Of a stretch of DNA of 48,914 nt, positions 9,295 to 19,801 are shown one piece after another. The DNA is from Desulfuromonas sp. TF. GTDB lineage: Bacteria > Desulfobacterota > Desulfuromonadia > Desulfuromonadales > ATBO01. Each line of letters opens with the position of its first letter. Position 1 is the stretch's first letter. The notes beneath the pieces were generated by a model. That model saw only the letters and a program-made list of their open reading frames with translations. It did no database searches and had not been told where the DNA came from. The translations under genes and the position numbers were made by a program. Location: the NCBI RefSeq assembly GCF_000472285.1, contig NZ_KI421421.1:570163-619076 (forward strand), read 5' to 3'.

Positions 9295-9798
9295 ATGGAA
9301 GCTTCAAAGAAGTTGCAAATAACAACAAATTCTATTAGAGAACATGGCTTTAAGTTTTTAGAACTTATTCCTGACACAGAAGATTTAACTCTAATTACAC
9401 TTAAAGGGCATTTGATAATTGAGGAGATATTATATTTCATTGTAATTAAACATTGCCAATTTCCTAAGTATATTGCAGAAGCCAGATTGTCTTTTTCACA
9501 ATTGTCTAGCCTTACGAAGGCAATGATTAATGTTCCCATTCATGATTGTGTATTTCCTGCAATTGATAAATTAAATAAATTAAGAAATAATTTGGCCCAT
9601 AACATCACTCCTGATAAAGCTATTAAACTGGCAAAAGAATTTGTCAATCTATGCGATCCACAGCGCAATAAAGATCTAACACTTCCTCAGCAAGTAAGAT
9701 ATTCAATTGTTTATGTATTGGGTCAACTTACTGCAATAGGTTCTGTATCGGAAAAATTAAAAGGCTTGGATCTCAAAAACGATATCAATTTTGTATGA
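9295..9798 (+). CDS. HEPN-like protein (phage moron)
   Basis: A 167-aa, mostly helical protein. It contains KLRNNLAHN, an exact R-x4-H motif of the HEPN RNase superfamily, followed by a short helical tail. HEPN proteins act as toxins and abortive-infection RNases. The gene is AT-rich, encoded on the plus strand inside a GC-rich minus-strand morphogenesis operon, and has its own ribosome site. These are signs of a recently acquired moron. The N-terminal half is not recognised. A non-catalytic HEPN role, such as a nucleotide-binding partner, cannot be excluded. Confidence 0.65.
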   Translation: MEASKKLQITTNSIREHGFKFLELIPDTEDLTLITLKGHLIIEEILYFIVIKHCQFPKYIAEARLSFSQLSSLTKAMINVPIHDCVFPAIDKLNKLRNNLAHNITPDKAIKLAKEFVNLCDPQRNKDLTLPQQVRYSIVYVLGQLTAIGSVSEKLKGLDLKNDINFV

Positions 9799-12591: not shown

Positions 12592-13291
12592 CGCCAGGAG
12601 CACCTCCGGTCAATTTCGGTTTCGGGTAGTCGATCGGCCGAGAATAGCGATCGAGCCACTCCAGGACGAACTCCTCGCCGCGCTCTATCAGAGCAGGGAC
12701 CTTTTTCGGATCGCCGGCGACGAGCTCGACGATCGTCAAGGCATGAACCGACCAGAACGTCTCGAGGTCGGATTTAAGAAAAGCGGCCCTTGAGGAAAAC
12801 TCGCGCTCCATAAAGGACTTTTCGACGTAATCCCCCCGGAGGATCGCGTTTCGGATCCGCCAGTTTTCCGCTTGCTCCTCTTTAACCGCCGTGTCGGCGA
12901 CCTGTTTTTTACGTTGCGCCTCGGCGCCCTCCTCGTCTCCGTCGCTTCCGTCGAGCCGGCGCAGATTGCCGCGAGCGTATTCGTCGAGGTCGGCCGCCAG
13001 GTAATAGCCGGAGCCGTCCGCGCGAGGGAGGACCTCGCGGTCCCTGTGCGCGTAGAGCGTCGAGGTCGACACCTTCCATCCGGCATCTGTTAAATAATCG
13101 GCCGCGCCGGCGATCCCCTTGATCCGGCGCGCTCCCGGCTCGACCGCGCCGGCGAGATCGGCCTCGGCCTCCTCGAGAGCCTTGGTCGACTCGCGCCAGT
13201 TTTTGAGATTCTCGGCGGTCGGCGACTCCTGGACCTTCTCCAGGTTGACCGCGACGGCTTTTCGTAAAATCTCGATAGGCGTTCCGGTCAT
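12584..13291 (-). CDS. Terminase small subunit-like DNA-packaging protein
   Basis: A 235-aa protein directly upstream of and overlapping the large terminase gene. The N-terminus is a helical coiled region; residues 60-105 resemble a winged HTH (AADYLTDAGWKVSTSTLYAH, then a basic wing); residues 130-200 match the helical part of Nu1-like packaging proteins. It probably recognises the packaging site and recruits the large subunit. Confidence 0.7.
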   Translation of the reverse strand: MTGTPIEILRKAVAVNLEKVQESPTAENLKNWRESTKALEEAEADLAGAVEPGARRIKGIAGAADYLTDAGWKVSTSTLYAHRDREVLPRADGSGYYLAADLDEYARGNLRRLDGSDGDEEGAEAQRKKQVADTAVKEEQAENWRIRNAILRGDYVEKSFMEREFSSRAAFLKSDLETFWSVHALTIVELVAGDPKKVPALIERGEEFVLEWLDRYSRPIDYPKPKLTGGAPGDE

Positions 13292-13725
13292 TTCCCCCGC
13301 CCCCCCCGCGCGAGCGCCGCGAACTTAAGCCGCCAGAGTCGGACCGTCTCGGGATCGACGGAGGCCGCCCTGGAGATCTCGACCAGGTCGACCTCGAGCG
13401 CCAGGAGATAGGCGATCAGGACGATCTGACTCGGCGAGATCTGGACCTTATGGAGAGCGGTCCCGGCCGTCGCCGTGAAGAACTTCCCGCACTCCCGGCA
13501 ATGGACGCGGCCGAAGGATTGGAACCGCGCCAGGCTCCGCCCCTCGAGGACGAGGCCGCACCGGGGACAGACGGCCGGCCCTGGATGGATCCAGGCGAGG
13601 ACGATCTCGCCGCATCGCTCCGGATCCAAGAAGTCCGCACCGAACGCCTTCGCGACCTCGGCCGGGAAGGAAATCCCCGTCGGTCTGGCCCGGTCAGATA
13701 TTGCGGTCGTTTCGAGAGATTCCAT
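13288..13725 (-). CDS. Zinc-ribbon plus HTH protein (IS1595/InsA-like)
   Basis: A 145-aa protein. Residues 50-80 hold two CxxC knuckles (CPRCGLVLEG ... CRECGKFFTATAGT), the zinc ribbon seen at the N-terminus of IS1595-type transposases and in InsA-like proteins. Residues 85-140 form an HTH (SRAASVDPETVRLWRLKF). No DDE catalytic domain follows, so it is not a transposase. It overlaps the small terminase gene by four bases and may bind DNA at the packaging site. ATG at 13725 is preferred over an upstream TTG. Confidence 0.6.
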   Translation of the reverse strand: MESLETTAISDRARPTGISFPAEVAKAFGADFLDPERCGEIVLAWIHPGPAVCPRCGLVLEGRSLARFQSFGRVHCRECGKFFTATAGTALHKVQISPSQIVLIAYLLALEVDLVEISRAASVDPETVRLWRLKFAALARGGRGK

Positions 13726-13796
13726 TTTTCCAGCCTTCAAAAAAGTCCAAAAGTAGACGTTTATCGGGCGCTTGCTGCCCGTATGGCTCCAGGTCG

Positions 13797-14417
13797 TCAG
13801 GAGGACCCGAACCGCCTCGCGACCGCGCGGTCGATGTGATGCTCGAACCGTTGCGGAAACTTCTCCTCGACGACCTGGACGATCGCGCGGAACACCGGCT
13901 CTTGCTCGAACATACTCGGGACCGAGATAACCCGCTTCTTGATGATCGGGAGCCGGCCCTTTCCCGCGCGGACGAACACCCCCATATGCGTCGCGCCCTT
14001 TGTCCCGGCCGCGACCGTGGCGATAAAGCCGGAGGGGATTCTCTCTTTTTTCCCGCGCTCGGCCTCATAGAAGACCCCGCCTTGTCCTTTCGATCTCTTG
14101 AGGACCTTAACCCCCGCGCGGCTTACGACCTGATTCCCCCGGACCCACCGCGCCCCGAAATGCGTCAAGTCGATCGGCCGGCCCTTCGCCTGGAGAACGA
14201 CGGAGAGATCCCACTCGTCAGCAAAGCTCGAGATCCTCACCCGCTCATTGATAAAGCCGGCCTTGAGATTCCACCTCGCGCGGATCTCTTTCCTCGCGGC
14301 CGTGTTGCCCTGGCGGCCGGAGTCGTTAAGCGCCAGGCGCGCCGCCGGACGGACGAGGTCCTCGGAGAGATACTCGAGCGCCTCGCGGAGCTCCCTATCG
14401 CCGACCTGAATCCTCAT
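13797..14417 (-). CDS. Minor tail protein Z-like (gpZ family)
   Basis: A 206-aa basic protein with ARLALNDSGRQGNTAARKEI near residue 26 and VFVRAGKGRLPIIKKR near residue 147, which resemble the prophage minor tail protein Z family acting at head-tail joining. It has an AGGAGG site before ATG. Its place is odd: in lambda, Z lies in the tail cluster, while here it lies upstream of the terminase genes, next to the repeat block. Confidence 0.6.
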   Translation of the reverse strand: MRIQVGDRELREALEYLSEDLVRPAARLALNDSGRQGNTAARKEIRARWNLKAGFINERVRISSFADEWDLSVVLQAKGRPIDLTHFGARWVRGNQVVSRAGVKVLKRSKGQGGVFYEAERGKKERIPSGFIATVAAGTKGATHMGVFVRAGKGRLPIIKKRVISVPSMFEQEPVFRAIVQVVEEKFPQRFEHHIDRAVARRFGSS

Positions 14418-14438
14418 TACTTGCGCCTCCTCTCGTTT

Positions 14439-14729
14439 GTCCGGGCTCTGTCCGGGCTCTGTCCGGGTTGTTTTCTTTCACCCGGACACGGTTTTTATTT
14501 GCAGTTTCGGCCTTTTATCCCTTTTGTCCGGGTTGTCCGGGTAAAACCTTAAAAGGAATAAGAGAGAAAAACCCCTCCGCTCTACCGTCTTTCCATCCCT
14601 TCGCGCGCGTGCGCGCATGCGTCATACCTTCCAATTCGCCCGGACAGCCCGGACATTCCCCTAAATCCTTATCTGGTCGGCGTTTTTTCCGTCCGGGTTG
14701 CCCGGACACGGCCCGGACAGAGCCCGGAC
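14439..14729. repeat. Twelve GTCCGGG/CCCGGAC iteron-like heptamers
   Basis: The 320-base non-coding gap between the gpZ-like gene and the primase-helicase holds twelve exact copies. Plus orientation starts at 14439, 14450, 14461, 14526, 14535 and 14691. Inverted copies start at 14481, 14639, 14648, 14701, 14712 and 14723. Spacing within clusters is 9-11 bases, about one DNA turn. The outer clusters mirror each other (GTCCGGGCTCTGTCCGGGCT versus its reverse complement), making a long-range inverted repeat. The middle holds a C/G-alternating stretch (14600-14620) and an A-rich stretch (14541-14571). A replication origin or multi-site operator is inferred. Confidence 0.7.
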
Positions 14730-14738
14730 ATTCCCTTT

Positions 14739-17330
14739 TTAGACAGCCTCGCGCTCCTCCGGAGGGGGGGGAGGGGGGGAGCCGCCGGCGGCGAGCTCGG
14801 CGCGCTCCTGGAGCCCGATCCCAAGATAAGCGCGCGCCCGGTCGGCGTCCTTCATTCGCCCCTCGCTAACCTTGACGACGGTCCGGAGCGTCGCGCCGAA
14901 ATTCGGTTTCGCCAAGGGCTTGTGTCCGTTCCTGGAGCAATAGGCCTTGTAAAGGTTATAGACCCGATCGACGGGGACTCGGAGGTCCTCCCCCGGCTCC
15001 GCCAGGCGGAGATCCTCCTCGAAAAACGCTTGGACCGGATTATTATGTCGCTTGTACGCCTGGAGGAACTCCCGCGACCTCTCCGCGTCGATAAAGCCGT
15101 CGTGCTCCCGCAGGAGCTCCAGGCCGGCAAGCGACCAGAGGAAGATTCCCGGCAGCTCGGAGAGGAGCTTGTCCTCGAGAAACTTGTCCTCCTCGGCGTC
15201 CAGGCCCGGCCCGAACTGCTTTGTAAATTGAATTCCCAGGATCCGCCGATAATAGCCGTCCGTATTGTCCGAGACATTCGGATAGAAATTCGAGGCAAAG
15301 GCCAGTTTGGCGTAAGGCCGATAGGTGAAGAAGTCCTTATGCTTGAAACTGGCGTTGACGAAATCGCCGGTCACGATCGCCTTGAACAGAGCCGAGCCGA
15401 AGGCGGCCTTTTCCGTCTCCGTCCCGATATTGAGGAGCTTCCCGTACAGCGTCGCTCGCTCGAAAGGATCCTCCAAGCGCGACATCTGGACGGCCGAGCA
15501 GTTGTGAGAGCCGATCATCGCCTGGAGGACCTTCAGGATCGTCGATTTCCCATCCGATCCCGGCCCGTGCAGGAGGAGGCATTTCCCATAGCGGGTTTCC
15601 CTGGTCAGGCAATACCCGAAAAACTGTTGAAGCTGAGTCCGGACCCGCTTGTCCGGGATAACCTCCTCGAGGAACTGGAGCCAGCGGGGACACTCCGCCG
15701 ACTCCTCGTAAACAAAGTCGAGGATCTGCGTCGCGAAATAGCGCGGATCGTGCTCAAGGAAATCCCCCGTCTCGATATTCAGCATCCCGTTAGCCAGGCA
15801 GATAAGAGCATGATGATCGTCGAGCTCCCGCTCCTCCGGCAGAAGCGAGCGGAGATAAACCTGGCGCGCCGCGTTTGCCGCGTGCTTCGACTCCCCCTCC
15901 TCGCCGAGCATCGCCAGAGCGAGCGCCTGGAGCCGGTCGATATGGAACTCCTGCCAGTTTTTGCCCGACCATCGAAAGAGCCGGCCGGTCAGCGGCTCGG
16001 CGATAAACTGCATATCCGAGAGCAAAGCGTCGGCCAGGAGCGCCGGCCGGAAGGATCGGCCGCGATAGAACCGCCGAGGCCCTGGAGCGATCTCCCGCTC
16101 CGGCGCCGGCTTCTCGATCGTGACGGCCGAGGGGAGCAGGTCCTGGAGCTCCTTGATCCCCTGGCCGTGCTTGTGGAAAAAGTCCGTCAGGTCCTCGCCC
16201 TTGTCGACGGGATATTTCGAGCCGTGCTCTAGGACGAAGTCGCTAAACTCCTTTTTCGGATCCTCGAGCGGCTGAGTCGTCCCCTCGTACATGCGCGCCG
16301 GCCAGAGAAAGATCCGGACCGAGCGCGCGACCTTGGCGAGCTCTCTCGCCGCCTTCTCCGCGCCGGCAAGTCCCGCCTTGTCCGCGTCGTAAGCGATAAT
16401 GACGTCACGGTCCTTGAACTTCTCCGTAAAGGCCTTTTTCCAGGTCCCCGCCCCGGCCGTCTGCGTCGTGACGTTCAGGCCGCGCGAGATCCCCGCGACC
16501 AGGTCCGGCTCCCCCTCGACTATCCATATCGGCCCGGAGCTCCAGGAGGGGGGAGGGGGGAGGAGGCGCGACTCGCCAAAGGTCCGAGGCTCGACCCCGC
16601 ACTCGAAACAGAACCGGACCCCCTTTTTTTCCTCCTCCTTCTTCCATTTCCAGCCCGCGCCGCATTTCGGACACTCCGGATCGCTCCAGGAAATGACCTT
16701 GTAATTCTTCGCTCCCGGCATATAGAGCCGGATATTGACCAGGCGCCCCTCCTCGTCGCGGACCGGGATCGCGATCCGCTCCTCGTCCCTGTGCGACTTC
16801 CAGAGCCGGAGATCCGCGCGCTCGATCCCGGCGCGAGTCCACCCTCGACCCGCTTCCATCTGGCGGACCTTCTCAAGGGGGAGGGGGGGGAGCGCCGCCA
16901 GGAGCCGCTCCTCGATGAAATCGCCCGATCCCGCGTTTTGTGCGGATTTCGCGCCTTTTTTGGCCTCCGTATTTGCCCCAGGAGCGGCCTTTTTCGATCG
17001 GCCCTTGTCTTGGTATTCGCCCGACCAAGGGGGGAGAGTGCTCTCGATCCCGAACTCGCGCCGAAACTCGACCAGGCCGCCCGATCGCGCATCGAGGCCG
17101 CGATCGCGACACCAGAGATCCGCCAGGTCGCCGGACGCTCCGCACCCCAGGCAGTTGAAAGCGTCCAACTCCGGATTATAGGAAAACGAGGGCTCCTGGT
17201 CGTCGTGTAACGGACAGAGGCCGACAAGCTCCGGCCCCTTCTTTCCCCGCCTGGCCGACTTGACGACAAAGAGAGCGCGCGCGATCGCCTCTCGGCGCTC
17301 CTCGCTTAGATGATCTTTAGCGATTCCCAT
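14739..17330 (-). CDS. Phage primase-helicase (zinc finger, TOPRIM, D5/SF3 helicase)
   Basis: An 863-aa replication protein. Residues 30-75 form a CHC2-type primase zinc finger (CPLHDDQEPSF ... CLGCGASGD). Residues 200-260 carry a second Cys-rich region (CPKCGAGW ... CFECG). A TOPRIM-like domain follows (WIVEGEPDLVAG, IIAYDADKAG). Residues 430-800 form a D5_N/SF3 helicase with Walker A GPGSDGKST. The end is a Pro tract. It should open and prime the phage origin, and the iteron block lies immediately downstream. A 17-codon ORF (17371 to 17321) overlaps both the upstream stop (ATGA) and this start and may couple translation. Confidence 0.9.
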   Translation of the reverse strand: MGIAKDHLSEERREAIARALFVVKSARRGKKGPELVGLCPLHDDQEPSFSYNPELDAFNCLGCGASGDLADLWCRDRGLDARSGGLVEFRREFGIESTLPPWSGEYQDKGRSKKAAPGANTEAKKGAKSAQNAGSGDFIEERLLAALPPLPLEKVRQMEAGRGWTRAGIERADLRLWKSHRDEERIAIPVRDEEGRLVNIRLYMPGAKNYKVISWSDPECPKCGAGWKWKKEEEKKGVRFCFECGVEPRTFGESRLLPPPPSWSSGPIWIVEGEPDLVAGISRGLNVTTQTAGAGTWKKAFTEKFKDRDVIIAYDADKAGLAGAEKAARELAKVARSVRIFLWPARMYEGTTQPLEDPKKEFSDFVLEHGSKYPVDKGEDLTDFFHKHGQGIKELQDLLPSAVTIEKPAPEREIAPGPRRFYRGRSFRPALLADALLSDMQFIAEPLTGRLFRWSGKNWQEFHIDRLQALALAMLGEEGESKHAANAARQVYLRSLLPEERELDDHHALICLANGMLNIETGDFLEHDPRYFATQILDFVYEESAECPRWLQFLEEVIPDKRVRTQLQQFFGYCLTRETRYGKCLLLHGPGSDGKSTILKVLQAMIGSHNCSAVQMSRLEDPFERATLYGKLLNIGTETEKAAFGSALFKAIVTGDFVNASFKHKDFFTYRPYAKLAFASNFYPNVSDNTDGYYRRILGIQFTKQFGPGLDAEEDKFLEDKLLSELPGIFLWSLAGLELLREHDGFIDAERSREFLQAYKRHNNPVQAFFEEDLRLAEPGEDLRVPVDRVYNLYKAYCSRNGHKPLAKPNFGATLRTVVKVSEGRMKDADRARAYLGIGLQERAELAAGGSPPPPPPEEREAV

Positions 17331-18572: not shown

Positions 18573-18779
18573 TCAATTCATAATATTCGCCGCCGACCAG
18601 AGCCGCCGGCGCAAAAGCTTTTTCTTCTCCGGAGTCGGATTTACCAGGACGAGCCGGTCCTCGATCTTGCCGAGGAGGTAAACCAGCTTTCGGCAGTTGT
18701 CCCCGCAAAAGGCCCGAGGACGGCCGGTCTTCTTCGCCTCGGGGAGCTCTCGGCCGCAGAATTCACAGTTTCGATTCAT
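18573..18779 (-). CDS. Small zinc-finger protein
   Basis: A 68-aa protein with four Cys in a finger-like pattern (CEFCGREL ... FCGDNCRKL) and a basic C-terminus. Related short proteins occur in phages and plasmids, but I cannot name a function. The start at 18779 overlaps the upstream 52-aa gene and has a GGAGG site. Confidence 0.6.
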   Translation of the reverse strand: MNRNCEFCGRELPEAKKTGRPRAFCGDNCRKLVYLLGKIEDRLVLVNPTPEKKKLLRRRLWSAANIMN

Positions 18780-18921
18780 TGCGCTTCGCCTCCTCCGCCG
18801 CCTGGCGCCGCTCGTAAGCGATCCGCGCGAGCTCCTCCATCCGGGGAAAGAAGACGTTGAACATATAGTCCCGCTCCTTCTCCGTGAGTTGCTCAAGCTT
18901 TACCTGGTAGGGCTTGCCCAT
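18763..18921 (-). CDS. Small helical phage protein
   Basis: A 52-aa protein starting MGKPYQVKLEQLTEKERDYM, with a GGAG site. It is mostly charged helix. It overlaps the zinc-finger gene by 17 bases. Function unknown. Confidence 0.45.
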   Translation of the reverse strand: MGKPYQVKLEQLTEKERDYMFNVFFPRMEELARIAYERRQAAEEAKRNESKL

Positions 18922-18989
18922 TGACCGGCTCCGTTTTTTTGTTTGCCTATTGGCCTGCCTTCTGTCAGAATGCACCTTCACCTCTAACT

Positions 18990-19205
18990 ATGGGAAATCA
19001 TTGGATGCACCCAAGAAAGTCCGGTCTGACGCCCGAAGAACATCAAGCCTCGGTCGAAGAGCTGAAATCGCTCTTTGATCGAATTTTTAAACTTTCCATG
19101 CTCTCCATGAATGCCTACGGCAAATCCTCCGAGATCGGGAAAGCCGCACTAAAGGCAGAGTCCGCAACGAGAGAGTTTCTCTTCCACCTCGAGGACAAAG
19201 GCTAG
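18990..19205 (+). CDS. Small helical protein on the opposite strand
   Basis: A 71-aa candidate starting MGNHWMHPRKSGLTPEEHQA. The sequence looks like real amphipathic helical protein, but no clear ribosome site was found, so confidence is low. It is convergent with the stand-alone SF3 ATPase gene, and the palindrome CTAG at 19202-19205 supplies the stop codon of both genes. Confidence 0.4.
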   Translation: MGNHWMHPRKSGLTPEEHQASVEELKSLFDRIFKLSMLSMNAYGKSSEIGKAALKAESATREFLFHLEDKG

Positions 19206-19801
19206 CCTCCAAACCCGCCGCGCTTCCGAAGCCGCTCCAGTCCCTCCTCCAGCCAGGCCAGAATTCCCTCCCGCTCCTCGGCCAGCTTCCGGTCCAGGTC
19301 GACGCTCATATCTTCCCGCCTGAACTGGCGCGGACAGTGAACGACCAGGAGCCGGCGCGCAATCGCCGGAGGGTTCTCGGGGAGGTAGTTCAGCATCGAG
19401 ACGAATTTCGTCTCCGGACGGAAAGAAAAATACGGCTTGTACTTGAAAGAGGCATTAAGAAGATCGCCGGCGATAAAAGCCTTGAGGTAAGATTGATCGA
19501 TCCCCTTGGCCACGTCCTCGCAAGAAACATTCAGGCGCTTCTCCGAGAGATCCGCGCGGACAAAAGGGTCCTTGAGATGAAAGAGCGGATGATATCCGAC
19601 TCTCTCACTCCCCAGGACGGACGCGACCACCGAGACCAGCACGCTTTTCCCGCTCGCGGCCGACCCCACCATCAACAACATCCGGCCATAGGTTTCAGGC
19701 GCGAGACAGCTCCCGAAAAACTCCTGTAAGAGCCGGATCTCCTCCTCGTTACCGACGACCTCCTCCAGAAACTTCAACCAATTCGGACAACTCGTTTCCA
19801 T
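19202..19801 (-). CDS. Stand-alone SF3/D5-type helicase domain protein
   Basis: A 199-aa protein that aligns end to end with the SF3 core of the prophage's own primase-helicase: NWLKFLEEVV versus RWLQFLEEVI, Walker A GSAASGKS versus GPGSDGKS, and LLNASFKYKPYFSFRP versus FVNASFKHKDFFTYRP. It lacks the primase, D5_N and C-terminal domains. It may be an early regulator, a decoy that poisons hexamers of incoming related phages, or a degenerate duplicate. Ribosome site GGGAGG. Confidence 0.75.
   Translation of the reverse strand: METSCPNWLKFLEEVVGNEEEIRLLQEFFGSCLAPETYGRMLLMVGSAASGKSVLVSVVASVLGSERVGYHPLFHLKDPFVRADLSEKRLNVSCEDVAKGIDQSYLKAFIAGDLLNASFKYKPYFSFRPETKFVSMLNYLPENPPAIARRLLVVHCPRQFRREDMSVDLDRKLAEEREGILAWLEEGLERLRKRGGFGG

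Follow-up and report, generated by a model that had tools for sequence, protein, structure and literature searches.

Known origins and the array in the window

In origins of the lambda-O type the iterons lie inside the initiator gene. The annotated record of the satellite P4, from which the P4 features used in this work were drawn, lists 'ori type 1 repeats' at 9310, 9320, 9331, 9353 (inverted), 9396 and 9406, with gaps of 10, 11, 22, 43 and 10; the P4 initiator, alpha, is a D5-family primase-helicase, the ori is one unit far from its gene, and crr, made of two direct 120-bp repeats, sits directly behind the alpha gene. According to PMC6092414, PICI and SaPI origins lie directly 3' of the rep gene, and PICI origins always consist of two iteron sets around an A/T-rich region, an arrangement given there as common to no other known replicon. 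PMC7581432 describes direct binding of the origin by the helicase in SaPIs and SCCmec; the SCCmec helicase Cch2, of D5_N type, does so through its C-terminal domain, which binds repeats downstream of its own gene.

The window analysed here is the whole stretch of 48,914 nucleotides (48.9 kb) from Desulfuromonas sp. TF. The preliminary description had reported twelve exact heptamers (GTCCGGG/CCCGGAC) in 291 bases, with the outer clusters in inverse orientation. An exact search of the window recovered every copy in its place within 14439-14729, starting at 14439, 14450, 14461, 14526, 14535 and 14691 on the + strand and at 14481, 14639, 14648, 14701, 14712 and 14723 on the - strand. The inverse orientation is right and was understated, as the site order of the whole array on the + strand (+++ - ++, then -- + ---) is mirror-symmetric and forms two six-site units. 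Eleven of the twelve sites carry the octamer TGTCCGGG, which in its inverse-strand form at 14481 reads CCCGGACA; the exception, at 14690, is CGTCCGGG. Gaps between octamer starts are 11, 11, 21, 44 and 9 in the distal half and 11, 11, 11, 42 and 9 in the helicase-proximal half, with the single inverted site 21 bp from its own triplet in the former versus 11 bp in the latter. The array fills a 321-bp gap between a neck-type gene and a primase-helicase gene, both on the - strand, and a lambda-O type origin was rejected because the array sits between ORFs 13797-14417 and 14739-17330. The features of the locus are as follows.

13288..13740, - strand: zinc-ribbon protein; possible accessory factor and rival binder (relatives in close-clade array loci)
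13797..14417, - strand: phrog_27 neck / GPZ-like protein; next gene downstream, opening the head-packaging side
14438..14467, + strand: distal outer triplet of three TGTCCGGG iterons, 11 bp apart (sequence; recovered by letter-blind geometry scan)
14481..14488, - strand: distal single inverted iteron CCCGGACA, 21 bp past the last site of the triplet (sequence and scan)
14525..14541, + strand: distal inner iteron pair, 9 bp apart (sequence and scan)
14542..14601, no strand: A/T-richer stretch, putative melting region (58% A+T versus 41% in the window)
14602..14622, no strand: 21-bp alternating purine-pyrimidine tract, predicted to be Z-DNA-prone, with a putative role
14639..14655, - strand: helicase-proximal inner iteron pair, 9 bp apart (sequence and scan)
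14690..14697, + strand: helicase-proximal single inverted iteron CGTCCGGG (sequence and scan)
14701..14730, - strand: helicase-proximal outer iteron triplet, 11 bp apart, 8 bases from the primase-helicase ORF (sequence and scan)
14739..17330, - strand: primase-helicase, 863 aa, proposed initiator (Pfam, profile and fold matches)

Heptamer counting, which had been suggested as a check, gave a divided result. Over the whole window the excess is weak (21 copies versus 14.5 expected), since at least 21 copies were reached in 5 of 100 shuffles; the distinctive trait is not overall enrichment but the crowding of 12 of these 21 into 291 bp, for which the density elsewhere would predict 0.05 (Poisson P ~1e-24). 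Clustering of the spaced octamer pair was borne out genome-wide, as all six matches in the host's own genome (4.4 Mb, 17 contigs) fall inside the array and a backward control gave none. Searches of the array DNA for similarity to named phages returned no match, and a literature search for the octamer letters returned no phage-origin title among the matches listed.

The primase-helicase carries Pfam matches to a CHC2 zinc finger, Toprim, D5_N, the DUF5906 helicase and a C-terminal Pox_D5 domain. The last of these, at residues 761-821, corresponds to a winged helix that also matches an RFX5 profile, and helices and strands are present in this region at 420-476 of the AlphaFold2 model; as modelled, the protein is predicted to have the make-up of an initiator with a C-terminal winged-helix domain. 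Its best solved profile match is 7ola, the SaPI5 primase-helicase (E 2.9e-50), which also ranked first in a fold search with the AlphaFold2 model (mean pLDDT 84, E 3.2e-23), and P4 alpha aligns to its helicase portion and to some of its C-terminal region with a probability of 99.5. At this locus the iterons follow immediately on the 3' side of a D5-family primase-helicase/Rep gene, with two iteron sets flanking an A/T-richer region as in PICIs and SaPIs. Unlike those elements, the element in the window is a prophage with matches to terminase, portal, major head protein, head-tail joining and minor tail genes and with an integrase gene; classification as a PICI or a P4-like satellite was rejected because it has its own head and tail gene set. 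Cch2 of SCCmec shares the D5_N-type helicase that binds downstream of its gene, but has three AAGTG iterons only and another polymerase and primase partner.

Relatives and the letter-blind geometry of the units

Relatives were collected by a protein-profile search alone, blind to repeats, which yielded 39 viral contigs. The close set comprises 22 contigs at ~38% identity or more (L185-L206, of which L185 is the window's own phage); L191, L192, L196 and L199 were treated as copies of L190, L193, L195 and L198, leaving 18 non-redundant arrays with the window included. That related phages keep repeats at the same place, named in the preliminary description as a point to examine, was confirmed in all 22 close relatives, whose helicase gene is followed immediately on its 3' side, within a few hundred bases, by repeats. 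The iteron is TGTCCGGG in most of them, CGTCCTAG in L203 and L204, TTGTCCG in L187, TGTCCGG followed by C or another base in L197-L200, and GTGTCC in L205, where the array is degenerate; in some relatives the letters are changed with the lattice kept (CGTCCTAG, TGTCCGGC, GTGTCC). Two arrangements were seen. The first (3+1+2) has usual gaps of 9-11, 9-11, 21-22, 42-45 and 9, and the second (2+1+3) occurs in L203, L204, L066 and L170, with both halves complete in L203 and L170 and one in L204 and L066. Wherever both halves can be read (the window's clade, L203 and L170), each has six sites in either arrangement. Twelve sites are not universal, as L194 (also numbered L180) has extra sites, 15 in total.

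The geometry scan uses site orientation and gaps, ignores letters and allows at most one mismatch per site, a threshold adopted because two mismatches per site gave a spurious match (L238). Gap ranges were set after the P4 coordinates were known; the inner gap had its range extended (to 9 or 10) to take in P4, the others fit the phage arrays, and a template for a shifted single site was added after the proximal half of the window had been seen. Since the scan reports 7-mer starts, opposite-strand sites are offset by one relative to octamer starts. It recovered the distal half of the window at 14438/14449/14460, 14482 and 14525/14534 (gaps 11, 11, 22, 43, 9) and the proximal half at 14723/14712/14701, 14691 and 14648/14639 (gaps 11, 11, 10, 43, 9); compared with most relatives, the proximal single site is shifted by about one helical turn towards its triplet, a shift also present in one half each of L186 and L200. 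Both complete halves were found in 15 of the 18 non-redundant close-clade arrays (window, L186, L188, L189, L190, L193, L194, L195, L197, L198, L200, L201, L202, L203 and L206), or 12 of 18 without the added shifted-site template, and one complete half only in L187, L204 and L205. Shuffled regions gave no unit, either with the first templates (0 of 90) or with the widened ones (0 of 90), and when ten sequences, window and P4 included, were tiled (323 tiles, first templates), units appeared solely at the arrays and at the P4 ori. No six-site unit was found in the 16 of 17 distant relatives whose sequence continues past the gene (that of L214 stops there), in seven named phages downstream of the helicase or in five further phage regions; some distant loci have other kinds of repeats behind the helicase. 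Behind the helicase gene of L216-L219 lie repeats of GGTGAAAG or GAAAGTA, near the P4 iteron GGTGAACA in letters and different in layout.

The annotated P4 ori was picked out by the scan as one six-site unit. It shares with the window octamer iterons, the 3-1-2 layout and closely similar gaps (10, 11, 22, 43, 10 versus 11, 11, 21, 44, 9 in the distal half), the single site of the proximal half being about one turn off, and the iteron letters differ (GGTGAACA versus TGTCCGGG). Whereas P4 has one unit far from the gene and direct repeats at crr, the window has two mirrored units together behind the helicase gene. A diverged copy of the P4 ori with the gaps kept is present in E. coli MB20. In E. 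coli CREC-629, a capsid-encoding element with integrase, capsid and small-terminase genes, which we read from its gene list as PICI-like, has two units behind the primase gene, one obtained when the scan accepted inner gaps as short as 8 and the other read by eye with one degenerate site; this double unit has the gaps of the window but places the triplets inside and the pairs outside. A search of the open-licence literature found no earlier report of the six-site lattice among the matches listed.

Because these loci had been collected through the helicase, its presence in them proves nothing, and a reverse test was therefore begun from the DNA core pattern alone. A D5 helicase gene adjoins the array in all seven viral contigs that carry the core pattern. 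With a looser half-pattern, D5 relatives adjoin 15 of 16 viral contigs (L066 by Pfam, L181 by a weak match), the exception being L175. Among 11 genome-contig matches to the half-pattern the sole real array was that of L170 (Magnetospirillum fulvum); the other ten were rejected, having three or four exact octamers at best and no D5 gene in the examined stretch. Of 277 genomes from the host's class, two (G000 and G048) contain the half-pattern, and a third, G046, has a degenerate array of which both halves were recovered by the geometry scan (L130). Clusters in L018, L024, L033, L038, L055, L071, L091, L103, L114 and L119 were set aside, as they are without the six-site unit; in L114 (2593-2997) nine copies of TGTCCGGG nevertheless lie directly behind a D5 gene, which shares ~28% identity with the helicase of the window, and are arranged differently from that unit. 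The TGTCCGGG clusters in L018 (7419-7647) and L103 (4985-5150) adjoin AAA_25-type helicase genes, not D5, have another layout and are perhaps unrelated origins.

Central region and alternating tract

The centre of the array in the window is moderately enriched in A+T (58% versus 41% for the whole window). Beyond the tract, the 17 relatives of the close clade have 51-79% A+T, L066 has 80% and L170 has 31%. A feature beyond those covered by the preliminary description is the alternating purine-pyrimidine tract at 14602-14622, the sole such run of at least 15 bp in the 48.9-kb window and hence the longest there, which begins 16 bp inside the helicase-proximal inner pair. All 18 close-clade loci have an alternating run in the centre on the helicase-proximal side, and in 13 of them the distance from the inner pair inward to its start is 14-16 bp; the offset for L194 was taken from the incorrect pair of its two. 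Run length is 15-30 bp in 15 of 18 loci and 11-13 bp in L186, L190 and L205, where the same length was reached by 42, 22 and 27 of 300 shuffles, respectively. The longest run in 14 distant loci is 12 (L213) or less, and it is 8 bp at the P4 ori, 7 bp at crr and 6 bp in the E. coli element; L066 and L170, whose helicases are diverged, reach 30 and 14 bp. The tract is specific to the window's phage clade. Alternating purine-pyrimidine sequence favours Z-DNA under negative supercoiling, and the tract may have a role at the origin. As a separate observation, a box like TTGGGAGTT precedes the distal inner pair in the array centre of L193, L195, L197, L198 and L206, and in some of these it is mirrored as AACTCCC after the proximal pair.

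Origin reading, its alternatives and neighbouring genes

The array is very probably a start site of phage DNA replication, because distant phages and P4 keep the spacing despite a different site sequence. We consider it highly likely, on comparative grounds, that it is the prophage's replication origin and is recognised by its own adjoining D5-family primase-helicase. The origin proposed in the preliminary description thus gains support from the clustering of the heptamer at this place only, from the repeats kept by relatives and from the match to the annotated P4 geometry. The array is best read as a candidate P4-alpha/PICI-type origin that belongs to a complete prophage, in which the two mirrored six-site units and the clade-specific tract would be new, and such a prophage would widen the known occurrence of these origins. 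Of the binders proposed earlier, the primase-helicase is the better candidate, with a D5 gene beside the array in seven of seven contigs, and the small zinc-finger ORFs (18573-18896 and 18763-18981) fell away, since among 27 loci tblastn found no relative of the first and a relative of the second in one.

By comparison we infer that the array functions as an origin and is bound by this helicase, with one subunit per iteron and a double hexamer. Each half, of six iterons (three, one inverted, two), faces the other across the central A/T-richer stretch and the tract. Every initiator subunit would take one iteron with its C-terminal winged helix, which under this proposal gives one hexamer per half; the two hexamers would then open the central region and depart in opposite directions, while the CHC2/Toprim parts would make primers as the hexamers leave. 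To our knowledge, how self-loading viral helicases load two opposed hexamers on duplex DNA is still open. A broader generalisation, which we offer tentatively and rate as somewhat less than an even chance, is that D5/alpha-type initiators share one six-site docking cassette (3-1-2 or 2-1-3), with spacing fixed across phages, P4 and PICIs and letters changing together. Letter change would leave the spacing untouched, since a unit would accommodate one hexamer and no more, held in register with the helix; facing units would preassemble the double hexamer, and in this clade the Z-DNA-prone tract would store or buffer unwinding. Since many origins keep site number, spacing and symmetry while the sequence is replaced, the subunit-per-site idea is directly testable, and a geometry scan could annotate origins without knowledge of the iteron.

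One comparison runs against recognition by the helicase. The window and L195 share the iteron TGTCCGGG and have C-terminal domains 28% identical, and the L195 domain is 35%, 26% and 22% identical to those of L203, L204 and L205, which have different iterons; no simple covariation of the domain with iteron letters was seen. Judged from these sequences, the C-terminal domain does not appear to track the iteron letters, which counts against a helicase-bound origin. Also against the reading are the departures from twelve sites (L194, and the single complete half in L187, L204 and L205), the late addition of the shifted-site template, the modest A+T content of the window's centre and the low one of L170, and the lack of the unit in the distant loci, the named phages and L114.

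A different binder, the zinc-ribbon protein (13288-13740) or another accessory protein that then recruits the helicase, is an unlikely alternative. Relatives of the zinc-ribbon protein accompany 16 of the 17 other close-clade array loci by iterative profile (14 of 17 by tblastn), even on the opposite side of the helicase gene in L203 and L205, and occur in 0 of 6 distant loci compared, a distribution that makes the protein a possible replication partner. Against its being the binder, no relative was found in L204, in the examined stretches of L066 and L170, in P4 or in the E. coli element, all of which have the same kind of unit, and the binder in SaPIs and SCCmec is the helicase (PMC7581432).

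We regard as still less probable, and very unlikely, the late-operon alternative that the preliminary description had also raised, in which a phage regulator would bind the array to control transcription at the border of the early (replication) and late (head) genes. The location of the array between the primase-helicase and neck genes, with the distal triplet 20 bp upstream of the neck start codon, would suit such a region, but a pattern search of 14300-14900 for sigma-70 type promoters found none, recognisable relatives of the neck gene are limited to 11 of the 17 other loci with close-clade arrays whereas the array remains beside the helicase, and the P4 ori has the same lattice. That the inverted sites work as RNA hairpins (for termination or processing) and not as protein sites on duplex DNA is scarcely credible: both single inverted sites are able to pair with a neighbour and one terminator-like match lies on the + strand at 14450-14468, but two terminator-like sites stand against 1.0 expected, same-direction sites change letters along with inverted ones in L203/L204, and an Rfam search of the array gave no match.

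Primase and helicase are fused in the window and in L008 and are encoded by two genes in L109, L160, L177, L178 and L179. A second, short D5-like ORF (19202-19801, - strand, 199 aa) has a DUF5906 and AAA match and is ~39% identical to the helicase core; its wider genome match holds one TAG stop, and the ORF is a truncated paralogue or remnant.
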